Assembly (NCBI RefSeq): GCF_017901135.1
Contig: NZ_CP072801.1
Coordinates: 1,240,001-1,304,000 of the forward strand
DNA from: Thiothrix litoralis
GTDB taxonomy: Bacteria; Pseudomonadota; Gammaproteobacteria; Thiotrichales; Thiotrichaceae
Length of the DNA stretch: 64,000 nucleotides
Reading direction: 5' to 3'
Position numbers and translations under genes: made by a program. Every line of letters begins with the position of its first letter. Position 1 is the stretch's first letter. Shown here piece after piece: positions 5,124 through 61,972 of this stretch. A model generated the notes under the pieces. That model was not told the origin of the DNA. It searched no databases and worked only from the letters and a program-made list of their open reading frames with translations.

Positions 5124-5534
5124 TCAGAACGTCAGTTGCTGGAAGGCCATCCCCTCACAGGAATTGCCACCCGCCACCTCACGCCCACCCAACTTCGCCC
5201 CATCGGATAACGCATTGAAGATCATCTGCGAAATATTCGGCTCAAAATACACCATATCCCCCATCCGAAAATCCATCGCCAGCCGGTAACATTGATCCTG
5301 CACCCGCTGAATGCCCCACTTATCCCCGTCGGTGTTCACCACCTTCACGATTTCCTTGTATACCCCATTGCACCCCGTCGCCGGTCGCACAATCGCCACA
5401 AAGAAATAATCCCCTGAATCGGGCTTCACCGTGGGGAAACAAGCCGTCCCCGCCACAATCATCAAGCCCTCATTCGCATACAGGTCAGCCCGCAACTTCG
5501 TCTGCGCCGCATCCCCAAACAAAACCTTGCCCAT
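5124..5534 (-). CDS. Phage structural-operon protein, unknown
   Basis: 136 aa starting MGKVLFGDAAQTKLRADLYANEG. Mixed alpha/beta composition with four cysteines, no transmembrane segment. Its ATG shares one base with the stop of the upstream gene (TGATG), so the two are probably translationally coupled. It lies 8 bases before the large structural gene. It may be a head-tail joining or neck protein by position only. Confidence 0.55.
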   Translation of the reverse strand: MGKVLFGDAAQTKLRADLYANEGLMIVAGTACFPTVKPDSGDYFFVAIVRPATGCNGVYKEIVKVVNTDGDKWGIQRVQDQCYRLAMDFRMGDMVYFEPNISQMIFNALSDGAKLGGREVAGGNSCEGMAFQQLTF

Positions 5535-13370: not shown

Positions 13371-13619
13371 TCAATTTGTAGGTAGCAACCCAAAAGCTGC
13401 TCTCATTGCATCGAGTGGACCAAAGGCCACCAGCAATAAAATAATCAGGAAAGTAGCGAGCACCCAGAGAATTGACGAAACAACCGTTTGTTGTTTTTCC
13501 GTAACGTTCTCAAGTTGCCCTAAATTCTTTTTCATTTCGTCCATATCCTGCCGGAAGCGGTTTTGACGCTCCTCAACAACCGCCAGCCGCGTAGCGTGCC
13601 CCAGTTCAGTTTCTGGCAT
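13371..13619 (-). CDS. XhlA-type holin-associated membrane protein
   Basis: 82 aa. Residues about 8-45 are a charged coiled coil (VVEERQNRFRQDMDEMKKNL), followed by a single transmembrane helix (about residues 48-68, ILWVLATFLIILLLVAFG) and a short tail. This coiled-coil plus C-terminal membrane anchor is the plan of XhlA-family lysis proteins of phages and defective prophages. The gene lies beside the endolysin in the lysis block. It could act with, or as, the holin. Confidence 0.65.
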   Translation of the reverse strand: MPETELGHATRLAVVEERQNRFRQDMDEMKKNLGQLENVTEKQQTVVSSILWVLATFLIILLLVAFGPLDAMRAAFGLLPTN

Positions 13620-24975: not shown

Positions 24976-25107
24976 CTAAATTCTATCCCATAGCCGCAGC
25001 GCAAAAACGAGCACTACGCCGACTACCGCCGCCACTGCCAGAAACCCCAGCACCAACAGCACCAACACAAAGCACTCAAGCGAAAAGTAGGCCGATGTGG
25101 CGCTCAT
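24976..25107 (-). CDS. 43-aa membrane protein coupled to the Cro-like gene
   Basis: ATG 25107 to TAG 24976. Its start overlaps the stop of the Cro-like gene as ATGA. One strongly hydrophobic helix fills residues about 12-36 (FVLVLLVLGFLAVAAVVGVV), followed by a short basic tail. Could be a small exclusion or toxin-like peptide. No homologue recognised. Confidence 0.5.
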   Translation of the reverse strand: MSATSAYFSLECFVLVLLVLGFLAVAAVVGVVLVFALRLWDRI

Positions 25108-25400
25108 GCTTTCGCCCCTTCCGAAGACCGACCATCAGCCGCTAAAGACCGCTGATCATCATCCGCTGGCTTTTCCATCAACACTGGCGTAGCGATTGAG
25201 TCAGCGTCAAACAAATCAGGACGCAAGCGACCTCTTGTTATCGCGCCACCCGTCATCTCTTCAATCTGAATAGCGCGAAACGGAGGAACGCGACCATTCA
25301 ACACCCACTTTGCCACCGCCTGTTGGCGTAGCTTGAGGTGTTTTGCCAGTGCAGCCTGTGAGCCTGCAATAGAGATTGCTTCAAGGAGTGCTTCATTCAT
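25104..25400 (-). CDS. Cro/YdaS-type transcription regulator
   Basis: 98 aa from ATG 25400 (MNEALLEAISIAGSQAALAKH); the frame is open to 25436. A helix-turn-helix occupies about residues 10-45 (SQAALAKHLKLRQQAVAKWV), with the turn sequence 'L..RQQAVAKW..G..PP..A..IE...GG', which is the hallmark of the YdaS/Cro family. It is divergent from the CI-type gene with an operator region between, as Cro is in lambda. It should bind the same operators and drive lytic choice. Confidence 0.8.
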   Translation of the reverse strand: MNEALLEAISIAGSQAALAKHLKLRQQAVAKWVLNGRVPPFRAIQIEEMTGGAITRGRLRPDLFDADSIATPVLMEKPADDDQRSLAADGRSSEGAKA

Positions 25401-25412
25401 TACTATAAGATA

Positions 25413-25472
25413 ACAACTTAAGTGGTAATTAGTCAAAACTTTTGTTTGATTGTATCAACAACCTTTGGTTGT
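25413..25472. promoter_or_regulatory. Repressor operator region (OR-like, three sites)
   Basis: Between the divergent repressor genes. A perfect inverted repeat ACAACCTTTGGTTGT lies at 25458-25472. Weaker relatives lie at 25413-25426 (ACAACTTAAGTGGT) and 25435-25448 (AAAACTTTTGTTTG). Steps of 22 and 23 bases put them on the same face of the helix, as in lambda OR. The same core recurs three times upstream of the rightward operon. Confidence 0.7.
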
Positions 25473-25483
25473 AAAATTGCTTT

Positions 25484-25873
25484 ATGGAAATGAAAGACCG
25501 AATCAAAGAAAAAATGCAGGAGCGAGGATACAGCCAAGATGATCTTGCGTTGCGGGTTGGCGTGTCACAAACATCAATCTACAAAGTCCTAAACGGATTG
25601 ACGCGCAAGCCGCGCTTTATTGGCGAGATTGCTGGGGCATTAGGGGTATCGGTTGAGTGGTTGTTGACGGGCAAAGATATGTTACCCCCTGCCCCGCCTG
25701 ATCAGGCAAGCAATGAAGAGCTGCCAGCGTCACCGCAGGAAGTAGTGCTGCTAGGGTTATTCCGAGGGCTAACGGATGACCAGAAAACCGAGATCGTGCG
25801 CTCGCTTGAAGCTCAGAAACAGCAAAACAAAGTGATCTGGGAGCAATTGAGCAAGGTCATGGGCAAGAAGTAA
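25484..25873 (+). CDS. CI-type phage repressor (HTH_3, short form)
   Basis: 129 aa. The N-terminal HTH spans about residues 5-60: KEKMQERGYSQDDLALRVGVSQTSIYKVLNGLTRKPRFIGEIAGALGVSVEWLLTG, a classic XRE/CI pattern (quoted in pieces: SQDDLALRVGVSQTSIYKVL). The C-terminal half (about 75-129) is a helical domain with EIVRSLEAQKQQNKVIWEQL. There is no LexA-type Ser/Lys autoprotease domain, so prophage induction must use another route, such as an antirepressor. It is divergent from the Cro-like gene and must maintain lysogeny. Confidence 0.85.
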   Translation: MEMKDRIKEKMQERGYSQDDLALRVGVSQTSIYKVLNGLTRKPRFIGEIAGALGVSVEWLLTGKDMLPPAPPDQASNEELPASPQEVVLLGLFRGLTDDQKTEIVRSLEAQKQQNKVIWEQLSKVMGKK

Positions 25874-25896
25874 CACCACAACCAGGGAGAAACCTT

Positions 25897-26193
25897 ATGG
25901 CAAATAATCTACGCCCCACGCATCTTTTGATGGCAGTGGAAGCCGCAACCGCTGGGCAACTGGCAGATATACTGACATTACAGAACATCGCACGAACGGT
26001 AAAAAGTGCATTACAACCGCATAACGCCAAAAATTGCACCATGTTGAACGAAACTCTTTACCAAATTGACGTAACTCATGGGCTAGATGCTTTTGTTCAA
26101 ATCTACGTCGCTCTACAAAACCGAGGCGTATCCGTGCGTATTCTGTTTTTCGATCAAGAGCCATCGTGGGTTTTTCCAGAAGAGAATCACTGA
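25897..26193 (+). CDS. Small phage protein downstream of CI
   Basis: 98 aa starting MANNLRPTHLLMAVEAATAG, with an AGGGAG site upstream. 23 bases after CI, so likely co-transcribed with it. Helical N-terminal half, beta-prone C-terminal part (VSVRILFFDQEPSWVF). No known domain. A lysogenic accessory function (immunity or exclusion) is possible from being next to CI; no motif supports this. Confidence 0.5.
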   Translation: MANNLRPTHLLMAVEAATAGQLADILTLQNIARTVKSALQPHNAKNCTMLNETLYQIDVTHGLDAFVQIYVALQNRGVSVRILFFDQEPSWVFPEENH

Positions 26194-26423
26194 AGCGCCA
26201 AGCATACCAAATTGGGAAGCCGACGACTCCACCACGTTACCGCGTGGTGGCTCGTTGGCAAAACCCCTAGCGGGCTGCGCGACCCACTAGGTGACGGCAA
26301 AGCAGCTTCCCCCTCTTGAACACCGACTTGCGGTAACAAGCACGGCTCAAGACACAGCAGCAGCGTAACCGTCATAAGAGACCGATCAACCGATCAGTCG
26401 ACAGCGCTGTTGGCGGTCACAAC
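26194..26423. other. Gene-poor stretch with a hairpin
   Basis: A perfect 8-bp hairpin CCACCACG/CGTGGTGG lies at 26229-26250 without a T run. A short minus-strand frame (26187-26375) lacks a ribosome site and looks spurious. Nothing else is seen. Confidence 0.35.
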
Positions 26424-26531
26424 ATGGAAACATCCATGAAAACGACGCTAACAATAAAGGTGAATGTCAACATCGACCTTGCAAAGGTGGTTTCGGCCAT
26501 CGCCGCAATAGTCGCACTGTTGATATTGTGA
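26424..26531 (+). CDS. 35-aa hydrophobic peptide (possible)
   Basis: ATG 26424 (METSMKTTLTIKVNVNIDLA) or ATG 26436 to TGA 26531. The C-terminal 16 residues (VVSAIAAIVALLIL) form a short membrane helix and the N-terminal part alternates polar and hydrophobic residues as in a strand. No clear ribosome site. A 10-bp hairpin follows at once. Low-confidence small gene. Confidence 0.35.
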   Translation: METSMKTTLTIKVNVNIDLAKVVSAIAAIVALLIL

Positions 26532-26539
26532 CCTGAGGC

Positions 26540-26566
26540 GGTCAGCCTGTTTAACGCAGGCTGACC
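26540..26566. repeat. Perfect 10-bp inverted repeat
   Basis: GGTCAGCCTG (26540-26549) and CAGGCTGACC (26557-26566) with a 7-base loop. No T run follows, so it is either a weak terminator or an RNA-stability hairpin after the small peptide frame. Confidence 0.6.
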
Positions 26567-26611
26567 AACCCAACCAACCCCAATAGCATAACAAACTACG
26601 CCGTCGCACGT

Positions 26612-26686
26612 CTAACCCACCCAGATCTCAACCACCAACCCCGGCACACGCTCAAACTCACGCACATTGTTTGACACCAGCACACC
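26612..26686 (-). pseudogene. Remnant of a VapC-type PIN toxin (C-terminal end)
   Basis: Read leftward, about 24 codons ending in TAG (26612-26614) encode LVSNNVREFERVPGLVVEIW plus VG. This is the C-terminal signature of VapC PIN-domain toxins (T/S-N-N-x-R-E-F-x-R-V-x-G-L-x-x-E-x-W). The rest of the toxin and the antitoxin are absent here, so it is a decayed fragment in the otherwise gene-poor stretch before the rightward operon. Confidence 0.65.
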
Positions 26687-26708
26687 AGGGAAACAACCAC
26701 CCGCAACC

Positions 26709-26730
26709 ACCCGCCCACGCGGGTTTTTTT
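26709..26730 (+). terminator. Terminator before the OL-like region
   Basis: CCCGC (26710-26714) pairs with GCGGG (26719-26723), 4-base loop, then seven T (26724-26730). It would stop rightward readthrough from the CI transcript, insulating the early rightward operon. Confidence 0.7.
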
Positions 26731-26812
26731 ACGCCAACCCTTCCCGCCATGTTCGCTCTCCGCTCGATCTAACCGCGCTAGATCCAGTCATAAACAAAAA
26801 GTTTTGCCAATA

Positions 26813-26874
26813 ACAACTTTGGTTGTTTACAACAATACAACTTTGGTTGTTTACAACAATACAACTTTGGTTGT
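26813..26874. promoter_or_regulatory. Repressor operator array (OL-like, three perfect repeats)
   Basis: ACAACTTTGGTTGT repeats at 26813-26826, 26837-26850 and 26861-26874, exactly 24 bases apart, with TTACAACAAT between copies. Each site is an inverted repeat ACAAC...GTTGT. Its core matches the site beside CI (one base shorter spacer). It precedes the rightward early operon, so CI should shut that operon off here. A promoter probably overlaps, but the -10 cannot be placed. Confidence 0.8.
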
Positions 26875-26941
26875 AGTCTTTATTCACTGCCTCAAAATAA
26901 GGCGGCAACCAAAACCGACAAACGTTACCAAGGAAACAACC

Positions 26942-27172
26942 ATGGCAAACCCACACCTCAACGAAGCGCTAGCACTGGCAATCACCAACTGGGTCGACTT
27001 CAAAATACTCAATGGCAACGAAACTCACCTGTACAACGATTTCCGCGCCGTTGCCATTCCAGCACTCCTCAACACCGTGCTGGTACACACCCACACAAGC
27101 CAAGTGAAAACGTCCATCGTGCTAGGCATCACCCGCCACACCCTGCGTGCTTGGCTCAAACAATACAACTGA
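26942..27172 (+). CDS. Fis-like DNA-binding protein
   Basis: 76 aa from ATG 26942 (MANPHLNEALALAITN), preceded by AAGGAA; the open frame runs upstream through the operator repeats and should not be used. The C-terminal half, with FRAVAIPALLNTVLVHTHTS followed by VLGITRHTLRAWLKQY, closely follows Fis (helix, then 'N...AA..LGI.R.TLR.KL..Y'). Fis bends DNA and helps phage recombination and replication. First gene of the rightward early operon, consistent with a regulator or recombination helper. A Fis-fold HTH is clear; identical function is inferred. Confidence 0.7.
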   Translation: MANPHLNEALALAITNWVDFKILNGNETHLYNDFRAVAIPALLNTVLVHTHTSQVKTSIVLGITRHTLRAWLKQYN

Positions 27173-27184
27173 AGGAGAACGATC

Positions 27185-27331
27185 ATGACAACCAAACAGC
27201 AACAGCAACTGGAACTGGAAGAATCTGAAACCGAAGATGGCGAGCCTTGCTACCGCCTCGCAATTAGTGAAGAAGATTCTGTCTGGCTGGACGGCGACGG
27301 CAACGAAGTCACCGAATATTTATCCGTATAA
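27185..27331 (+). CDS. Small acidic early phage protein
   Basis: 48 aa (MTTKQQQQLELEESETEDGE ...), with GAAGGAGAA upstream. Very acidic (about a third Asp/Glu) with YRLAISEEDSVWLDGDG in the middle. Acidic, DNA-mimic-like composition is common among phage inhibitors of host enzymes, but that is only a possibility here. Spaced 12 bases from the Fis-like gene. Confidence 0.5.
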   Translation: MTTKQQQQLELEESETEDGEPCYRLAISEEDSVWLDGDGNEVTEYLSV

Positions 27332-29699: not shown

Positions 29700-31592
29700 A
29701 TGAGTAACAACACAGCATCTGCTTACAAAATCAACCAGCGCCTCAAGCTGCTGGAAACCGACCTGTCCGACTACCGAGCCGCACTAGATCACTCCATTGT
29801 TAACCTCAGCATTGCCAAGTGGGTCACATTCATCCTGTATTTCACCGCTGTTTGGACGTTGTACGTCTATGACGTGTGGGGTGTCGCTGACTTCCTGAGC
29901 AGCAACATGGGTGACGCACCCGCCTTCATCATCTTCGGCACCGTTTCCGTCATGCTCCCCCGCTTCCTGTCCAGGACAAAGGAAGACCGTTACAAAGACA
30001 TCGCGGAAACCACCGCCAGCGGCTACCGACTAAACATCGTCGCCATCCTGACGCTGATTTTTTTCGCGTGTTCCGGGCTGTTTTTCGAGTTGTTTACCGC
30101 CACCTCGCAACAGCAACACATCACCACCACAGCGGCTGAAAATAGCCAATCGTTCAAGCAGACCGAAAGCACCATTACCATTGCCAGCACCAGCGGCTCA
30201 GAATTGGCAGCGGCTGAGCGCCGGGTTGCTCTCTGCTATGCAAAAAAGGAGAAAACCTGCGTGGGTGATGAAGCCCGTGCCAATTCACTCAGAGAACAGC
30301 AAGCGCGTGATGCTCAGCAACAGATCGCCGCCAGCACTGCCCTATTCGCTGAGCAACACAAGGCACGCGAAGAACTGAAAGAAGACGCTAACAAACCGCT
30401 GTTCAAAATGATTCGCGACACGTTTGACGTAACCATTAACACGGGCATGATTATCGGCGTAGCAATCATGATTACGATTTTTGAATTAACCCACATCATC
30501 AATTTATTTACTTACGCCAGCCGTTTACGCCGCTGGAGAGAAACCAACAACGAATTAATTGAAATGAACGGTGAATATATGGAACTCACAGGCCACATTG
30601 TTTCCTCAGACGATTTCGACGACATGAAAAAACCTGTATCACGTCAACCGATGCAACCAGTAATGCCGCAGGACTTTAAAAAGCCATCTCAATCAGCAGC
30701 ACCCATTAAATCACCTGCATTTAATGATACTGCCACAGCATTGAATAACCGCCCTACCCCATCGTCTATTTCCAGCACCATTAAAACCATCGTGAACGGT
30801 GTTGACCTGAGCAAAGCAAATACGGCGGGCGATATTAAAAAAGCGGTCTACAACGCTTATTCCGTTATCCCCAACCCTGCCCCGCTGAATGATACCGATC
30901 TGGACAAAGTGGCTGAAAAGATCACCCAAGATCGTGGCATCCAACCGCCAGCCATCGCTGCTGAGCAACACCCTGCCCCTGCCCCTAAAAAGGTATCGTT
31001 CGGCATGATCCCAGAACGCCCCAGCAATCAATACATCGGCGGCACAGGCATCAAAAACCCAGCACTGGGCAAAGCTGAAGCCATCTATCCCCTCCCGCTC
31101 CCCACCGATGATATGGTCAAAAATGACGCGGTGCAGCAATCTGGAACGGATGGCGGAACGGATGGAACGGATAGAAGCGTTCCGAACGCTACGGAACGGA
31201 ACGCTATGGAACGGGTTGGAACGGGTGAAATAGAAGCGTTCCATAGCGTTCCAATCCGTTCCGTTGAGAAGGGCGGAAGCGTTCCAAGCGCTGCGGAAGA
31301 GGGTGATACCGCCAAAAATGACACAGAAAACTTTGAAAGAATGCGCAAGGTTTTTGAAGAAAATGAACTACTTGAGAAGGGAAGGGAAGTGTTCTGCCCA
31401 GTATGTGCCGTTCCGTTCCTGAAGAAGCGTTCCAACCAACGGTTCTGCTGTGTAGAAGACAAAGCGCATTACTGGAAACTCGCAAAACGGAACGGATACC
31501 GTGGCAAGGAACTGGATGGAACGGATGGTGGAACGGATGGAACGGATGGTGGAACGGATGGAACGGATGGTGGAACGGATGGAACGGATTGA
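29700..31592 (+). CDS. Large phage-encoded membrane protein with C-terminal zinc-finger-like tail
   Basis: 630 aa, the largest gene of the accessory operon. Predicted spans near 40-60 (AKWVTFILYFTAVWTLYVYD), 72-90, 113-133 (IVAILTLIFFACSGLFFELF) and 245-268 (GMIIGVAIMITIFELTHIIN). Between spans 3 and 4 is a charged helical domain (about 135-240). After span 4 comes a 340-residue disordered, Pro-rich region, then EVFCPVCAVPFLKKRSNQRF with further Cys, like a zinc ribbon, and finally a repeat tail of Gly-Thr-Asp units. No family is recognised. Position suggests envelope or exclusion function. Confidence 0.55.
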   Translation: MSNNTASAYKINQRLKLLETDLSDYRAALDHSIVNLSIAKWVTFILYFTAVWTLYVYDVWGVADFLSSNMGDAPAFIIFGTVSVMLPRFLSRTKEDRYKDIAETTASGYRLNIVAILTLIFFACSGLFFELFTATSQQQHITTTAAENSQSFKQTESTITIASTSGSELAAAERRVALCYAKKEKTCVGDEARANSLREQQARDAQQQIAASTALFAEQHKAREELKEDANKPLFKMIRDTFDVTINTGMIIGVAIMITIFELTHIINLFTYASRLRRWRETNNELIEMNGEYMELTGHIVSSDDFDDMKKPVSRQPMQPVMPQDFKKPSQSAAPIKSPAFNDTATALNNRPTPSSISSTIKTIVNGVDLSKANTAGDIKKAVYNAYSVIPNPAPLNDTDLDKVAEKITQDRGIQPPAIAAEQHPAPAPKKVSFGMIPERPSNQYIGGTGIKNPALGKAEAIYPLPLPTDDMVKNDAVQQSGTDGGTDGTDRSVPNATERNAMERVGTGEIEAFHSVPIRSVEKGGSVPSAAEEGDTAKNDTENFERMRKVFEENELLEKGREVFCPVCAVPFLKKRSNQRFCCVEDKAHYWKLAKRNGYRGKELDGTDGGTDGTDGGTDGTDGGTDGTD

Positions 31593-32540: not shown

Positions 32541-33662
32541 ATGCCAAGACCACGCCAGCTACGCGCCACACTCCAATACCCACCCTATGTCAGCGTCAGC
32601 TATGGCGTGGTCGTCTTCAGACCCTACGTCCCAGCCGAAAAAAGGGCAGGGCTAGACGTAGGCAAAAACGGCCTACTCAAACACAGCATCCGCCTGGGCA
32701 CACCACTGGATGACCAAGACGCCATCTACCGCGCCTACCTTGCCGCCCGCGAATCACTACGCCTACAAATGACCAGCGCCCGCAACACCCTAGGCTGGCT
32801 CACCGAACAATACCTCGCCTCACGCCAATTCCGTGACCTCGCCATCAGCACCCAAAAACGTGCCTTCCAACTATCCCGCATCCTCGAACACCCCCTCAAG
32901 ATCAACGGCACACCCAGCACCCTCGCCATGCTCCACATCACCAACCTCAGCCAACCGCTATTACACCAGATCGCCGACAAACGCCTCAGCGACTACCAAC
33001 GCAACGGCAAAAAAGGGGTTGTCCAGGTCAACCGTGAAACCACCTTTCTCAGTGGCGCACTCAGTTGGGCGTGCAACTACATCCCCGACATCGGCATCAC
33101 CACCAACCCCTTACGCGGCTTCAGCGGCATCCCCGAAACACCCATCACCCGCTACATCACCGACGACGAATACCAAATCGCCTACGACCACGCCGCCAGC
33201 ATCCGCCCCTGGCTACAACCCCTCATGGAACTCACCTACCTGCTAGCACTACGCGGCATCGAAACCCTCACCATCCGCCTCAGCGACTGCACGGAAGAGG
33301 GCATCCGCACCCACCGCCGCAAAGGCTCCCGCGACAACATCATCCGCTGGTCACAACGCCTGCGCCAAGCCCACCAAGCCGCCCTAGTACTCCACCAACC
33401 CGACAAACAAACCGTGCGTGACCCCTACCTGATTTGCTACCGCAACGGCGAAGCCGTCAGCCGGGGCGCAGCCCACATCGCCATGCGCGAACTCAAAGCA
33501 AAACTCGACGCAGCAGAGCAGGGCGAAACCTTTTTCAACCTCCACGCCCTCAAAGCCAAAGGCGTCAGCGACAGCAAAGACAAACACATTGCAGGCCATC
33601 GTAGCGAAGCCATGCGCAACCGCTACGACCGCAAATTACCCACCACCGACCCCGCAAAATAA
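32541..33662 (+). CDS. int: Tyrosine integrase
   Basis: 373 aa. N-terminal arm-binding region (about 1-60), core-binding helices (about 80-190), then the catalytic domain: Arg238 (LLALRGIET), Lys261 (HRRKGS), His335 with Lys338 (HALK, an HxxK variant of the HxxR box), His353 (AGHRS) and Tyr362 nucleophile (RYDRK). All catalytic positions are present, so it looks active. It would insert and, with excisionase, excise the prophage. It ends the rightward operon, as int does in lambda-like phages, so an att site should be close by. Confidence 0.88.
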   Translation: MPRPRQLRATLQYPPYVSVSYGVVVFRPYVPAEKRAGLDVGKNGLLKHSIRLGTPLDDQDAIYRAYLAARESLRLQMTSARNTLGWLTEQYLASRQFRDLAISTQKRAFQLSRILEHPLKINGTPSTLAMLHITNLSQPLLHQIADKRLSDYQRNGKKGVVQVNRETTFLSGALSWACNYIPDIGITTNPLRGFSGIPETPITRYITDDEYQIAYDHAASIRPWLQPLMELTYLLALRGIETLTIRLSDCTEEGIRTHRRKGSRDNIIRWSQRLRQAHQAALVLHQPDKQTVRDPYLICYRNGEAVSRGAAHIAMRELKAKLDAAEQGETFFNLHALKAKGVSDSKDKHIAGHRSEAMRNRYDRKLPTTDPAK

Positions 33663-33901: not shown

Positions 33902-34282
33902 TCACAACTTGCATGACAACGACCTCAGCCAATCCGCTAAGCCCAATTCATCCACCTCACCCAGCACGACCTTAACGATCATGCCACCAGCATCCTCTGG
34001 GCTACCGTAATCCAGTTCCACGCCGTTGAGTGCCAGCAACGTATCCAGCGCCGCGAACGCGGTACGCTTATTAGCATCATTAAACGCATGGGCAACCGCA
34101 ATGAAAGCCGCATAACACGCCGCCAGCTCAAACACATCCCCAATCAGCCCATACTCCAGCCGATTCAACACCCGCGCAATTACCGATTCCACCGACTTAT
34201 CCGGCGCTTCACCTTGCAACTCATGGGCATTGATCACGCTATCATGAATCAGGATAACGTCCGGTGCAGACAAGTACTTCAT
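33902..34282 (-). CDS. doc: Doc/Fic-type toxin
   Basis: 126 aa from ATG 34282 (MKYLSAPDVILIHDSVINAH); the frame is open to 34297. The Fic motif HAFNDANKRT (65-74) is intact, with the His and the Asn-Lys-Arg required for phosphoryl/AMP transfer. Doc phosphorylates elongation factor Tu and stops translation. It follows the Phd antitoxin gene after a one-base gap and is transcribed with it, the standard order. Confidence 0.88.
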   Translation of the reverse strand: MKYLSAPDVILIHDSVINAHELQGEAPDKSVESVIARVLNRLEYGLIGDVFELAACYAAFIAVAHAFNDANKRTAFAALDTLLALNGVELDYGSPEDAGGMIVKVVLGEVDELGLADWLRSLSCKL

Positions 34283-34283
34283 A

Positions 34284-34532
34284 TCACTTGTCCTCAAGGT
34301 ATTTCAGCGTAGCCGCAATCGCAGTGCGGCGGCGTGCCAACACAGCGCCTAACTCATCAGCGCCCGCCGTCACCAACGGCGCAGGGCTAATAGCGGCCAC
34401 TGGTACAAAGTACCCCACCACCTGACTACGATTGAGAATAGCAACAGGGCAGTTACCCGCCTGCGCAATGACCTTGGCAGGCTCACGCAACTCCGTCATA
34501 GAAATAGACTTACGGGAAAGTAGGGTTTGCAT
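34284..34532 (-). CDS. phd: Phd/YefM-type antitoxin
   Basis: 82 aa. The N-terminal part (SRKSISMTELREPAKVIAQA) is the usual start of Phd DNA-binding domains, with 'S.TELR...A.V...A...PV.I..R...VGYFVP' following. The C-terminal helix (ELGAVLARRRTAIAATLKYL) would wrap and block the toxin. Upstream lies a palindrome that should be its operator. Confidence 0.85.
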   Translation of the reverse strand: MQTLLSRKSISMTELREPAKVIAQAGNCPVAILNRSQVVGYFVPVAAISPAPLVTAGADELGAVLARRRTAIAATLKYLEDK

Positions 34533-34828: not shown

Positions 34829-35047
34829 CTACTTAGAAATAACCCCACTCTCAATCAACACCTCCCGCATCAACTCCTTCATCCGCCTTTCCGTAATCGG
34901 CTTGGTTTCCGCTTCCGGCAAAGACTGGGCAAGCCGAAGCCTTGCGATGACTTCCGCATTCATAGATCGGCTGCCTTCATCTGCTGCATCCATTAATTCT
35001 TGATGCAGATCAAGGGGTATACGTAGTGTGATTCGCTGATATTCCAT
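34829..35047 (-). CDS. Ribbon-helix-helix repressor (Mnt-like)
   Basis: 72 aa, starting MEYQRITLRIPLDLHQELMD. This is the Arc/Mnt pattern: a beta strand RITLRIP, then helices DLHQELMDAADEGSRSMNAEVIARL. The C-terminal helix (RRMKELMREVLIE) may form a tetramerisation coil as in Mnt. Divergent from the next RHH gene with three operators between, as in the P22 immI region, where Mnt blocks the antirepressor promoter. Confidence 0.8.
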   Translation of the reverse strand: MEYQRITLRIPLDLHQELMDAADEGSRSMNAEVIARLRLAQSLPEAETKPITERRMKELMREVLIESGVISK

Positions 35048-35084: not shown

Positions 35085-35167
35085 TGACAGAGTTTTACTG
35101 TCATTTTGTTATTGACAGTAAAACTCTGTCACATTAACATATCCACACTGACAGAGATTTACTGCCA
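35085..35167. promoter_or_regulatory. Three RHH-repressor operator sites in the divergent promoter
   Basis: TGACAGAGTTTTACTGTCA at 35085-35103, its exact reverse complement TGACAGTAAAACTCTGTCA at 35113-35131, and TGACAGAGATTTACTGCCA at 35149-35167. Each half site contains TGACAG. The sites fill the gap between the two divergent repressors and overlap where their promoters must lie. Confidence 0.85.
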
Positions 35168-35182: not shown

Positions 35183-35350
35183 ATGCAAAGGATGACCATC
35201 AGAGTTCCAGATGAATATCGGGAATGGCTGGAAACAGCAGCCAAGAGCAACCACCGCACACTGAACGGCGAAATCATTGAAATTTTCAGGAAGTTGAAGG
35301 AGGAATGGGCAAAGCAACAAGAACCGCTGGAAACAGCATCAGCAAAGTAA
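35183..35350 (+). CDS. Ribbon-helix-helix repressor (Arc-like)
   Basis: 55 aa from ATG 35183 with AAGGAGA upstream. MQRMTIRVPDEYREWLETAA contains the beta strand (MTIRVP) and first helix, followed by NHRTLNGEIIEIFRKLKEEW. Arc size and pattern. Stop at 35350, 63 bases before the inserted IS element. In P22 Arc limits antirepressor synthesis from the same promoter. The same job is inferred here. Confidence 0.78.
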   Translation: MQRMTIRVPDEYREWLETAAKSNHRTLNGEIIEIFRKLKEEWAKQQEPLETASAK

Positions 35351-35412: not shown

Positions 35413-36489
35413 TGTCATGTCCCATGGGATCATATTCCCTCAAGGAGCTACCCATTATTCAAAGCACGGGCTATCCTTGAAGGCATCTTATCCACCCATG
35501 GCTACAAGGCAAAGCGTACATGAAACTGCATCCCGAAGCACGGACAACCCCGAAATTACGGAGTGAAATCAAGGCATCGCCGCTCACACAAGCAGAACTG
35601 GCGAAACAATACAATGTCAGCCGCCTGACGATCCGCAAATGGCAGAACCGTGAGGAGATGACCGACAAATCGCACCGTCCCGATACGCTGCACACCACGC
35701 TGACTGAGGTACAGGAATGGTTGGTGGTGGAGCTACGTAAGACCCTGCTGCTGTCGCTGGATGACCTGACCCACATCACCAAAGAATATATCAATGCCGC
35801 CGCCAGCCGTTCGGGTATAGACCGCTGCCTGCGTCGTCATGGGATCGCCAACCTGGCGGTAATGAAGCGGGAACTGTATGGCGAGGAGCCGCCACCGAAA
35901 AAGGTGTTCAAGGACTACGAACCCGGCTATATCCATATTGACATCAAATACTTGCCGAAGATGCCCGACGAAAAGGAACACCAATACCTGTATGTCGCCA
36001 TCGACCGTGCCAGTCGTATGGTGTGCCTTGCCATTTACCCCGACAAAGCGGCTGCCAGTACAGCGGATTTTTTGGGTAAAGTAGAGCAGCGCTTCCCCAT
36101 CAAGGTGCAATACGTGCTGACCGACAATGGGAAGGAATTCACCGACCGCTTTACCCGTAAAGGGGAACGTGACCCCACAGGCAAGCATAAATTCGACAAA
36201 GCCTGTGAGCGCATCAAGGCTGAACACCGCCTCACCAAGCCACGCCACCCCCAAACCAACGGCATGGTAGAACGCTTCAACGGACGTATCAGCGACTTGT
36301 TGCAAACCACCCGTTTCGCCTCATCCAATGAATTGGCTGACGCGATCAAACATTATGAACGGCTCTACAACCACTGCATTCCCCAGAAAGCACTGGGATA
36401 CAAAACCCCTATTCAAGCACTCAAGGAATGGCAGAAAAAGAAGCCAGATTTATTCAAAAAGAAAGTATATGATCTATCGGGACTTGACA
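35413..36489 (+). mobile_element. IS481-family insertion sequence
   Basis: About 1,077 bp. The left end TGTCATGTCCCATGGGATCA matches the inverted right end TGTCAAGTCCCGATAGATCA in most positions. One transposase gene fills it. CTACA lies immediately left of the element (35408-35412) and again two bases beyond the right end (36492-36496), so a target duplication is possible but not clean. It has inserted between the Arc-like gene and the antirepressor-like gene. Confidence 0.8.
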
Positions 36490-37283
36490 ACCTACATCTA
36501 ATGGCTATGCAAGATAATATCAACATCAACATCACTGTCAACCAGCCAACCGCACCAGCGGTAGCGGTTGCCCCAAACGCGTACAACTTCGGTGGAAACG
36601 CCATTCGCATCATCACTATCAATGGTGATCCGTGGTTCGCAGTTGCTGATGTCTGTGATGTACTGGGCTATACCAATAGCCGAAAAGCCCTAGCGGATCA
36701 TTGCCGGGCGGATGGTGTAACGAAACGTGACACCATCGACAGCATGGGAAGAACTCAGTCACTCACCTACATCACCGAAGGCAACCTTTACCGCCTGATC
36801 ATCAAGAGCCGCAAACCGGAAGCAGAAAAGTTTGAAAGCTGGGTTTGTGATGAAGTGCTACCCAGCATCCGCAAAACCGGCAGTTATACCGCAGCATCCA
36901 AACCCGCAGTGGAATACATCACCGCCACCCAAATGAACCACCTCGCGTGCTTGGTTGGCGCAATGCAGGAAAACTTCCACTACAGGAATGCAGCCTCTCA
37001 CGCCGCCTATGCCAGTCTTCGCAAAGCGTTCAACGTCGAAGACAGCATCAAAAACCTGCCAGCGTCACAATTCAACAACGCACTGGCACTGATCACCGAC
37101 ATGGGAAAGCTCGCCTTCGCCTTCCGCAGCGCCGTAATGGAAGCCGAGAAAAGGTTCTTCCGCGAAGTCATCCGCAACGGCAACGGCTTCGACAGCCGCC
37201 GCCTCGAAGCCGAACTCTACGCCGAAGTAGCCAAACTCACCGCCAACCGCCAACAATCCCTAATGTGGAGCGCAGCAGCATGA
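35520..37283 (+). CDS. IS481-type transposase reading through into a Bro-N domain (fused frame)
   Basis: 587 aa in one uninterrupted frame. Residues 1-325 are a DDE transposase: an N-terminal HTH (TQAELAKQYNVSRLTIRKWQ), Asp141 (IHIDIKYLP), Asp202 (VLTDNGKEF) and Glu251 (MVERFNGR). The transposase would normally stop at the right inverted repeat, but no stop occurs and translation would continue into the Bro-N protein from about residue 328. The fusion is a product of the insertion. The transposase may still work from this frame, and a chimera could be made. Confidence 0.75.
   Translation: MKLHPEARTTPKLRSEIKASPLTQAELAKQYNVSRLTIRKWQNREEMTDKSHRPDTLHTTLTEVQEWLVVELRKTLLLSLDDLTHITKEYINAAASRSGIDRCLRRHGIANLAVMKRELYGEEPPPKKVFKDYEPGYIHIDIKYLPKMPDEKEHQYLYVAIDRASRMVCLAIYPDKAAASTADFLGKVEQRFPIKVQYVLTDNGKEFTDRFTRKGERDPTGKHKFDKACERIKAEHRLTKPRHPQTNGMVERFNGRISDLLQTTRFASSNELADAIKHYERLYNHCIPQKALGYKTPIQALKEWQKKKPDLFKKKVYDLSGLDNLHLMAMQDNININITVNQPTAPAVAVAPNAYNFGGNAIRIITINGDPWFAVADVCDVLGYTNSRKALADHCRADGVTKRDTIDSMGRTQSLTYITEGNLYRLIIKSRKPEAEKFESWVCDEVLPSIRKTGSYTAASKPAVEYITATQMNHLACLVGAMQENFHYRNAASHAAYASLRKAFNVEDSIKNLPASQFNNALALITDMGKLAFAFRSAVMEAEKRFFREVIRNGNGFDSRRLEAELYAEVAKLTANRQQSLMWSAAA
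36501..37283 (+). CDS. Bro-N family antirepressor-type protein
   Basis: 260 aa from ATG 36501 (or ATG 36507). The Bro-N domain covers about residues 25-125: AIRIITINGDPWFAVADVCD, LGYTNSRKALADHC, LTYITEGNLYRLIIKSRKPE and WVCDEVLPSIRKTGSY, all family hallmarks. The C-terminal part is helical. Proteins of this family often act as phage antirepressors that inactivate CI. Its place after the RHH pair parallels P22 ant. The IS has cut it from the promoter upstream, so expression may be altered. Confidence 0.8.
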   Translation: MAMQDNININITVNQPTAPAVAVAPNAYNFGGNAIRIITINGDPWFAVADVCDVLGYTNSRKALADHCRADGVTKRDTIDSMGRTQSLTYITEGNLYRLIIKSRKPEAEKFESWVCDEVLPSIRKTGSYTAASKPAVEYITATQMNHLACLVGAMQENFHYRNAASHAAYASLRKAFNVEDSIKNLPASQFNNALALITDMGKLAFAFRSAVMEAEKRFFREVIRNGNGFDSRRLEAELYAEVAKLTANRQQSLMWSAAA

Positions 37284-37501: not shown

Positions 37502-37734
37502 AAAACAAACTCGTCGACTTAAACAACCACCTCTTTGCCCAACTGGAACGGCTAGGGGATGAAGACCTCAAAGGTGACGCACTCACCACCGAGATCGAGC
37601 GCAGCCGCGCCATCACCGGCGTTGCCAAACAACTCGTACAGATCGGGCAACTGGCACTGGATGCCGAGAAGTTCAAACAAGAACATTCCAATATCCCCAT
37701 GACCTGCCTACCCGAGATGCTGGAATCAAAGTAA
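37498..37734 (+). CDS. Small phage protein of a common prophage family
   Basis: 78 aa (MKNKLVDLNNHLFAQLERLG ...), with ATGA overlaps at both ends. The order 'L.NHLFAQLERL.D......L..EI.RA.AI..VA..LI...' is a frequent hypothetical family in prophages, often beside an HNH endonuclease gene as here. Function unknown. Confidence 0.6.
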   Translation: MKNKLVDLNNHLFAQLERLGDEDLKGDALTTEIERSRAITGVAKQLVQIGQLALDAEKFKQEHSNIPMTCLPEMLESK

Positions 37735-38399
37735 TGACCGAAAGCCATGAAAAATGGCTGGAAACCAAGCTCAGGGAAGAGCTTGGCATCCCTGCCAACC
37801 GTGAAAAAACCTACACATACCAACAATTGCTCTTCGTCAGCAACAACCGCCACCTGCCACGCGCCGAACTCACCAGTCAGTACAACCAAACCTTCGGAAC
37901 AAATGTACCCGTGACGCAACTCCAATCCCTCTGCAATCGTCGCAACTGGCAAACCGGGCGCACAGGTCACATGGAAAAAGGTCACGCCACCTGGAACAAA
38001 GGCATGAAAGGGCTAAAGCTGAACAACGGCAAAGGCTGCTTCCAACCAGGCCACACACCACATACTCACCGACCCATTGGCAGCACCCGGATGCGTAGCG
38101 GCTACCAATTGACAAAAGTTGCCGAACCCGGGACATGGAAGCCCACCCACCGGCTAATCTGGGAACAAGCCCACGGCAAAATCCCCAAAAGCCACACCTT
38201 AAAGTTTCTCGACGGCAACAAGGCCAATCCCACCCTAAGCAATCTCACCCTAGTATCCCGCGCCGAACTTGCCCAACTCAACCGCAACCACTACAACACC
38301 ATGCCCAACGACCTAAAACCAACTATTCTGCTAATCAGCAAGCTCGAAACCAAATACCACCAGCACTCAACAACTTACCGAACCGATAAGTCAAAGTAA
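37734..38399 (+). CDS. HNH endonuclease-type protein
   Basis: 221 aa. N-terminal region (about 1-80) is helical. The nuclease core lies at about 140-190: HRLIWEQAHGKIPKSHTLKF, then DGNKANPTLSNLTLVSRAE, typical of HNH_3 endonucleases of phages and mobile genes. A homing-type or packaging-related nicking role is possible. It is the last gene of the module before an AT-rich gap. Confidence 0.65.
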   Translation: MTESHEKWLETKLREELGIPANREKTYTYQQLLFVSNNRHLPRAELTSQYNQTFGTNVPVTQLQSLCNRRNWQTGRTGHMEKGHATWNKGMKGLKLNNGKGCFQPGHTPHTHRPIGSTRMRSGYQLTKVAEPGTWKPTHRLIWEQAHGKIPKSHTLKFLDGNKANPTLSNLTLVSRAELAQLNRNHYNTMPNDLKPTILLISKLETKYHQHSTTYRTDKSK

Positions 38400-38714: not shown

Positions 38715-38745
38715 TTTTCAGGAAAGCCCCATTTATTTTCAGGAA
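38715..38745. repeat. Second pair of TTTTCAGGAA sites, next to the tRNA
   Basis: TTTTCAGGAA at 38715-38724 and 38736-38745, 21 bases apart, mirroring the pair beside the integrase gene (33,748-33,777). Distance to the tRNA anticodon core is about 100 bases, to the palindrome in the other copy about 75. Confidence 0.55.
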
Positions 38746-38753
38746 GCCAGAAA

Positions 38754-38787
38754 CAAAAAAGGCTCACATTCATTACTGTAAGCCTTT
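38754..38787 (-). terminator. Terminator of the tRNA gene
   Basis: AAAGGCT (38758-38764) pairs with AGCCTTT (38781-38787). On the minus strand the stem is followed by U from 38760-38754. It lies 18 bases beyond the tRNA CCA end. Confidence 0.65.
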
Positions 38788-38804
38788 GATGTTTTAGGGG
38801 GATT

Positions 38805-38881
<77 letters not shown>

Positions 38882-61489: not shown

Positions 61490-61972
61490 CTAGCGCTTCC
61501 CGTATTTTCCCTGCAACGCTTTCATGTAAGCCCTACGCTCTGCATCATTCATGCCTGACCACTGCTCACGTAATTTTTTACGCTCTGCTTCCGGCAACTT
61601 TTTAACCCATTCATGCCATTGCCTGATGCGGGCTTTCTGCTCGGCCGACATTGCCCGGTAACGTTTCAACTGTTTGACAACATTCTGTTGTTGCGATTGG
61701 GAAAGCCGCTTCCAATCCCCGAAGCGCTGCTTGATCTTCGCCCGCTCTGCGGCGGGTTTGGCTGCCCAGCGGCGTAGAGCACTTTGGGTTTTATCCGGCA
61801 AGGATCCCCATTCCCCCTGAAAAGCCTTCAATACAGACTGTTCAGTGTTGCTCAATGCCTCCCACTTGACTGATCCTGCCATCACGCTCCCACTTGCCAA
61901 CAGTAGCGTCCACGCCGTCAATAACGCTACTAGAAAACCGATAAAACGACAGTTATTGCTGCTGCTGTTCAT
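61490..61972 (-). CDS. DUF3106 protein (exported)
   Basis: 160 aa from ATG 61972 (MNSSSNNCRFIGFLVALLTA); the frame is open to 62101. Signal peptide about 1-33 ending near SGSVMAGS. The mature part is the DUF3106 helical repeat: SVKWEALSNTEQSVLKAFQG and QSQQQNVVKQLKRYRAMSAEQ. Such proteins occur beside an ECF sigma and DUF3619 gene, as here. Function unknown, periplasmic. Confidence 0.85.
   Translation of the reverse strand: MNSSSNNCRFIGFLVALLTAWTLLLASGSVMAGSVKWEALSNTEQSVLKAFQGEWGSLPDKTQSALRRWAAKPAAERAKIKQRFGDWKRLSQSQQQNVVKQLKRYRAMSAEQKARIRQWHEWVKKLPEAERKKLREQWSGMNDAERRAYMKALQGKYGKR

Follow-up and report, generated by a model that had tools for sequence, protein, structure and literature searches.

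A probable 434-type immunity region with a short CI-like repressor in a Thiothrix litoralis prophage

In a 64-kb stretch of the Thiothrix litoralis genome at positions 1240001-1304000 (the window), short dyads lie between a CI-like gene and a divergent Cro-like gene and again downstream of the CI-like gene, raising the question of whether these dyads are the operators of a phage immunity switch and, if so, of which type. The locus is probably the immunity region of a 47.7-kb prophage, in which CI would act on 434-type sites at OR and OL, Cro would act within the gap shared by the two genes, and induction would proceed through an anti-repressor (Ant). The genes around the proposed operators are given below.

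25104..25400, minus strand: Cro-like protein, 98 aa, P22_Cro / YdaS family
25484..25873, plus strand: CI-like repressor, 129 aa, with a 434-type HTH (by Pfam and structure matches) and a predicted long C-terminal helix
25897..26193, plus strand: 98-aa ORF between cI and OL, at the position of rex in lambda
26942..27172, plus strand: Fis-like HTH protein, 76 aa, the first gene past the array, scoring below the curated Fis cut-off
32541..33662, plus strand: integrase closing the rightward gene run, with a match to phrog_1 integrase at 1e-20 and a score under the cut-off of Pfam Phage_integrase

The CI-like protein scored 44.3 bits against HTH_3 (cut-off 23) and its DNA-binding domain is of 434 type. 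The best solved-structure matches were to the 434 repressor at 1.1e-14 (2r63) and 5.4e-14 (1per/2or1), with 434 Cro at 5.5e-7, and identity to the 434 repressor domain was 49% over the aligned stretch. In a model built from the one sequence (mean pLDDT 73), a 434/P22-like domain was predicted at about residues 1–65 and a helix at 98–126; alignment of this model by VIA-align gave a Z of 10.2 to 2or1_L, tied with P22 c2 (10.9) and 434 Cro (10.7). The initial annotation had described the repressor as lacking the protease domain of lambda CI, in agreement with Pfam, where no peptidase model was present among the 15 families listed at E ≤ 0.1. CI accordingly differs from the self-cleaving repressors of lambda, P22 and 434 type in having no recognised S24-type peptidase, and at 129 aa it is not one of the repressors of about 210 aa with a C-terminal peptidase/oligomerisation domain. 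The Cro-like protein exceeded the gathering score of P22_Cro (PF14549; 44.6 bits, cut-off 30.2), with the Cro protein 3bd1 as its best solved-structure match. Both proteins fell below the NCBIfam DicA/DicC subfamily scores, CI with 41.5 bits against a DicA cut-off of 101 (residues 3–124 on 6–127 of 135) and Cro with 18.9 bits against a DicC cut-off of 130. The other 15 genomes of the genus gave no CI match at E ≤ 0.001 and a set of 56 relatives gave one weak match (4.8e-4); Cro was found among 63 genomes of the family in its own genome only. For the 98-aa ORF at 25897..26193, neither a family nor a phage match was found. The stretch from the cI operon to the array contains a hydrophobic 35-aa ORF (26424-26531), a possible small membrane peptide, and after it a perfect 10-bp inverted repeat (26540-26566).

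In lambda, cro and the replication genes run one way, and cI, an accessory gene, OL and an integrase run lie in the other direction. The gene topology of the window is alike, in mirror image. To the left of cro and on the same strand are genes for a replication protein O-like product, a DnaC-like loader, terminase, portal and major head proteins; to the right of the array are the Fis-like gene, several genes without clear family and the integrase. The likeness to lambda OR and OL claimed in the initial annotation holds for the layout, with the CI-like gene flanked by site clusters and set between a divergent gene of the Cro family and a rightward run ending in the integrase, but not for the operator sequence, the array sites being 434-type, nor does CI have a recognised peptidase. 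A 630-aa ORF in this part of the window (29700-31592) ends in GTDGGTDGTD repeats.

The clearest sites form the array downstream of cI, termed OL here.

26813..26826, no strand: OL site 1, ACAACTTTGGTTGT, 14-bp dyad, 434-type, joint best match of the 434-operator matrix
26837..26850, no strand: OL site 2, identical to site 1, by exact match and matrix
26861..26874, no strand: OL site 3, identical to sites 1 and 2, by exact match and matrix
26850..26877, plus strand: possible rightward promoter, weak, TTTACA-16-TGTAGT, overlapping OL site 3
26804-26833: alternative rightward promoter, weak, TTGCCA-18-TACAAC

The three sites at 26813, 26837 and 26861 are free of mismatches and stand at a pitch of 24 bp, just as first annotated, and both spacers between them are also identical to each other. 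All three have the exact 14-bp ACAA-N6-TTGT form of a 434-type OL downstream of cI. Within the whole genome (4,284,843 bases, single contig) the sole copies of the exact 14-mer are those of the array. The form ACAAC-N4-GTTGT occurs at five genome places, three of them in the array, and ACAA-N6-TTGT at 47, again with three in the array and none elsewhere in the window. Matches to the array 14-mer at up to three mismatches numbered 14 in the window (shuffle mean 6.6; 14 reached by 1 of 100 shuffles), and those to the 15-mer of the cro-cI gap numbered seven (shuffle mean 2.0; seven obtained in 2 of 100). Such loose matches say little, and the signal sits in the exact copies. The search for a strong sigma-70 promoter at OL found none and a separate promoter scan returned no candidate there; the two rightward candidates scored 8.9 and 9.5, where the 95th percentile of 150 random stretches was 9.0. 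Among 16 genomes of the genus, the array DNA and the Fis-like protein were each found only in the genome of the window itself. The array pattern was absent from the viral contigs, and the DNA of 25000-27200 had no match when compared with phages.

On the other side of cI, the start codons of cro and cI are separated by 83 bp, within which three candidate OR sites and two predicted promoters lie.

25413..25426, no strand: OR site at -71, cro-proximal, ACAACTTAAGTGGT, 9/10 half-site bases, between the -35 and -10 of the predicted cro promoter
25435..25448, no strand: OR site at -49, middle and weak, AAAACTTTTGTTTG, 7/10 half-site bases
25458..25472, no strand: OR site at -26, cI-proximal, ACAACCTTTGGTTGT, 15-bp dyad overlapping the predicted cI promoter
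25407..25436, minus strand: predicted cro promoter, TTGACT-18-TATCTT
25450..25477, plus strand: predicted cI promoter, TTGTAT-16-TAAAAT, missed by a separate promoter scan

A motif at 25458 and two weaker copies had initially been annotated in this gap. The motif at 25458 is present, but as a 15-bp dyad (N5), one base longer than the 14-bp (N4) sites of the array. Its two companions are of unequal quality, that at 25413 being good and that at 25435 poor, with a half-site score reached by 217 of the 63,987 window positions. The distance of 1.35 kb given between the two site sets is correct (1355 bp), and their phasing of about two helical turns is better put as about 2.1–2.3 turns for spacings of 22–24 bp. 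Ranked by the 434-operator matrix over the same 63,987 positions, 25413 came 18th, 25435 came 871st (269th one base on) and 25458 came 888th and 1,080th in its two 14-bp registers. The gap contains no exact ACAA-N6-TTGT: 25413 departs from the eight fixed bases at one, 25458 has N7 and 25435 is poor. The array is thus of 434 type and the cro-proximal site nearly so, while 25435 and 25458 are poor 434 sites. None of 20,000 dinucleotide shuffles of the gap gave three equally good sites at -71, -49 and -26 (±1), these offsets having been taken post hoc; an unbiased three-site search of the same gap gave a z of 1.6 at 14 bp and was best at 13 bp (z 2.1). Of the two clusters the one at cro-cI is the weaker, and the unbiased search there is not striking. 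The middle site was kept because two selected relatives have a site near that offset, and the three OR sites are retained, with less confidence, as candidate operators. Elsewhere, ACAAC-N5-GTTGT has three of its five genome places in the window (13480, 25458 and 61677), above the window's 1.5% share of the genome. The place at 13480 is inside the prophage and that at 61677 outside, and by eye no second site was seen near either (361 and 451 bases inspected, respectively).

The 434-operator matrix was derived from viral loci. A scan of viral contigs, with the window CI aligned to the 434 domain as query, found 97 loci, of which 80 were kept, 71 with a QQSI recognition helix and nine with other helices. 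At least two exact ACAA-N6-TTGT sites were present upstream of cI in 70 of the 71 QQSI loci and at least three downstream in 68, and none was found at the nine loci with other helices; these counts come from loci far from independent, one HTH sequence being common to 53 of the 71. Three downstream sites lie at +1.08 to +1.15 kb in 14 of 15 loci among those listed. The matrix was symmetrised and drew on 20 distinct operators from 15 loci, one of which (L104) has a stop in cI, with the window sequence excluded and the nine non-434 loci left out. Scored by this matrix, the input of which was confined to exact ACAA-N6-TTGT sites, a pattern picked after seeing that the array fits it, the three array sites were joint first of all 63,987 window positions at 12.8 bits. 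At the 434-type loci the OR sites are at about -90 and -68, as against -71 and -49 in the window, and the repressor is mostly 210 aa long. A corresponding scan of genome contigs gave 16 loci, three of which entered the comparison of gaps described next, and ACAA-N6-TTGT was not found near cI at any of the 16. Redundancy among the 434-type loci, together with the weak unbiased result for the window gap, lowered confidence in the immunity-region reading slightly, to the level of probable.

The comparison covered 45 cro-cI gaps including that of the window, several of them nearly identical and the listed locus L029 absent. As best dyad length, 14 bp was commonest (12/45) and 15 bp rarest (1/45), with z ≥ 3 at 14 bp in only 11 of the 45 gaps. 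Averaged over the gaps, z was 1.38 at 14 bp, 1.19 at 16 bp, 1.07 at 18 bp and 0.28 at 15 bp, the even lengths sharing a centre and not being independent. Relatives with offsets matching those of the window were hand-picked from this set: L154 has -71/-49/-26, as in the window; PP9W2 has -74 and -26 and also a site at +1013, to which a looser pattern adds +1038; and in G412, where CI has 115 aa and a divergent 90-aa frame looks like Cro by eye, three clean 14-bp dyads stand at -70/-48/-25. The class search had matches in 16 of 369 genomes, that of the window included, and G412 was chosen for dyads visible by eye. With the patterns tried, a second array was not found within 15 kb in G412 (one isolated match), and its CI had no relatives in the viral contigs. 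At the G412 locus (L147, CI at 5240) the neighbours look like host genes by eye, and it is perhaps a remnant or a domesticated switch. In the window, and less cleanly in L153 and L154, a lysine at 434 position 33 accompanies ACAAC half-sites; G412 also has this lysine and shares the inner AC/GT. A lysine-ACAAC recognition code is not claimed, all 18 SQTA(I/V)HK loci being without a clear array (best z ≤ 2.1).

A second regulatory module and the right limit of the prophage lie to the right of the integrase.

34829..35047, minus strand: Arc-like RHH gene of the immI-like module
35183..35350, plus strand: divergent Arc-like RHH gene of the immI-like module
35086..35166: three 17-bp sites GACAGAGTTTTACTGTC between the Arc-like genes, at 35086 (plus strand), 35114 (minus strand) and 35150 (plus strand, 2 mismatches)
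35413..36489, plus strand: insertion sequence whose transposase has an rve domain, placed after the second Arc-like gene and before ant
36501..37283, plus strand: Bro-N anti-repressor (Ant), phrog_130 anti-repressor Ant, 1.7e-46
38742..38851, no strand: right attachment repeat, 110 bp, overlapping tRNA-Met

An identical 110-bp copy of the right repeat was found at genome positions 1231157-1231266, 8.8 kb to the left of the window, and these perfect direct repeats are the likely attachment sites bounding the 47.7-kb prophage at tRNA-Met. P22 carries c2 and cro in immC and mnt, arc and ant in immI. Inside the end repeats of the present prophage, two Arc/Mnt-like RHH genes (24.9 and 30.1 bits against PF03869, cut-off 20.4) likewise lie near an anti-repressor gene, and the layout of this module resembles P22 immI. 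The 17-bp sites between the Arc-like genes were the only three found at up to three mismatches, where the shuffle mean was 0.08. Judged by its family, Ant is the best candidate for an inactivator of CI. The insertion sequence (1077 bp) has three other genome copies at 98–100%, and the transposase frame runs into ant with no stop between. This element separates the Arc-like genes from ant, so that the inducing arm may function differently from that of P22. Other genes within the prophage include a Fic/Doc-family gene with an overlapping 82-aa antitoxin-like gene, the latter without a Pfam match (33902-34532), an HNH endonuclease gene between ant and the right attachment repeat (37734-38399) and, between the end repeats but left of the window, a 2468-aa ORF (L180, 12574-19980).

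The array may be explained without CI. The first gene of an operon often autoregulates, and since the Fis-like gene is the first past the array, the array could be the autoregulatory site of that 76-aa protein, leaving only the cro-cI gap to CI and Cro. The array, however, is at the top of the 434-operator matrix and shares its half-sites with the cro-cI gap, and the best matches to the generally known Fis consensus in 26781-26960, from which the specificity of this protein may differ, have four mismatches and fall outside the array (438 window positions match at four or fewer). Autoregulation by the Fis-like protein was set aside with no good match to that consensus, and is highly improbable. 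Repetition of an exact 24-bp unit, spacer included, suggests a recent duplication, and the array might then be a tandem repeat made by slippage with no regulatory role. Yet the repeated unit is a dyad that fits an independent operator matrix, its 14-mer recurs nowhere else in the genome and it lies to the same side of cI as the OL of 434-type loci, which makes such an origin as the whole account extremely improbable.

With the array assigned to CI, as preferred here, the sites might still be divided by half-site spacing, CI taking the 14-bp sites (OL and -71) and Cro the 15-bp site (-26). The one-base difference between the two site types, the separate families of the two proteins (434-type and P22_Cro) and the rarity of 15-bp dyads among the 45 gaps compared with 14-bp dyads all favour such a division, which is possible if unlikely: CI and Cro use common sites in both 434 and P22. 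Furthermore, the 434-like 933W repressor is reported to use 15-bp sites, so that an odd length is no sign that a site belongs to Cro (PMC3317979). The initial annotation considered it plausible that CI binds cooperatively and loops the DNA between the two arrays, as in lambda; the separation of the clusters by 1.35 kb and the 22–24-bp spacing fit this, and the helix at 98–126 of the single-sequence model could oligomerise. Cooperativity in lambda and 434 comes from the C-terminal domain, however, and no domain of that kind was recognised in CI; three identical perfect sites at OL would also need less cooperativity. The 933W repressor is also reported not to bind adjacent sites cooperatively (PMC3317979), and lambda-like cooperativity and looping by CI are unlikely. 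A more unusual design is quite unlikely as a whole. In it, a 434-type CI that has no peptidase would read 14-bp sites and a P22-type Cro 15-bp sites of the same gap, the identity of the three OL sites would stand in for cooperativity, and the sole route to induction would be the immI-like anti-repressor module, its wiring now changed by an insertion sequence. The regulatory design is ordinary, of a sort long familiar in other phages as a means of keeping the prophage dormant, and most likely combines 434-type sites, a repressor of DicA length, a P22-type Cro and a P22 immI-like partner.

The closest plans are those of phage 434 and the dicA/dicC locus of E. coli Qin. As in 434, the HTH is near that of 434 CI, the array sites are ACAA-N6-TTGT, spacing is mostly 22–24 bp, and candidate sites upstream of cI are accompanied by an array after the cI start (about 1.1 kb in 434-type loci, 1.33–1.38 kb here). 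Unlike the 434-type loci, the window has a CI of 129 aa with no recognised peptidase, and its recognition helix reads SQTSIYK in place of TQQSIEQ. It further differs from 434 in having a Cro of the P22_Cro family, three identical OL sites, a 15-bp cI-proximal OR site and an OR about 20 bp closer to cI. P22 is approached in the family of Cro and in the Arc-like RHH genes and anti-repressor that share a prophage with cI and cro; its c2 operators differ from those of the window, and the window prophage has an insertion sequence between the Arc-like genes and ant. P22 c2 has 216 aa according to PMC10448788, again longer than the 129 aa of the window CI. With Qin, the window has in common a short repressor (135 aa in DicA, 28 of 122 aligned residues or 23% identical) and the layout of a divergent small Cro-like gene. 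According to PMC10448788, three operators are predicted from sequence in the dicA-dicC gap and in the dicA-dicBp region, and DicA has no cleavage site and is countered by an anti-repressor. According to PMC3441716, the DicA site is a 20-bp inverted repeat, differing in sequence from the window sites, and of three sequence-predicted OR sites DicA bound Oc in vivo but not Om or Oa. Qin is cryptic, whereas the window prophage has head, portal, terminase and integrase genes.

In the proposed switch, a CI dimer would bind 14-bp 434-type sites of the form ACAAC-N4-GTTGT. Bound at OR, CI would cover the cro promoter and keep cro and the leftward replication and late genes off; at OL, it would cover the start of the rightward run ending in integrase and keep that run off. 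Cro would bind within the 83-bp gap and shut off cI after induction, the cI-proximal 15-bp site being the likeliest Cro-favoured or low-affinity CI site. Since CI is without a recognised peptidase, induction probably does not occur via RecA-stimulated self-cleavage, and self-cleavage of CI is itself unlikely. Induction would instead proceed via Ant of the immI-like module, perhaps held off by the Arc-like proteins on the 17-bp sites. LexA-controlled induction was also considered and set aside; the window has five loose LexA-like boxes.

The prophage would thereby join 434-type sites, a short repressor and an anti-repressor module in one element, and would add to the dicA-like case in which lysogeny need not end by self-cleavage of the repressor. 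Together, the window, L154, G412 and PP9W2 offer recognition helices paired with likely sites, a small natural series in which 434-type recognition may be tested.
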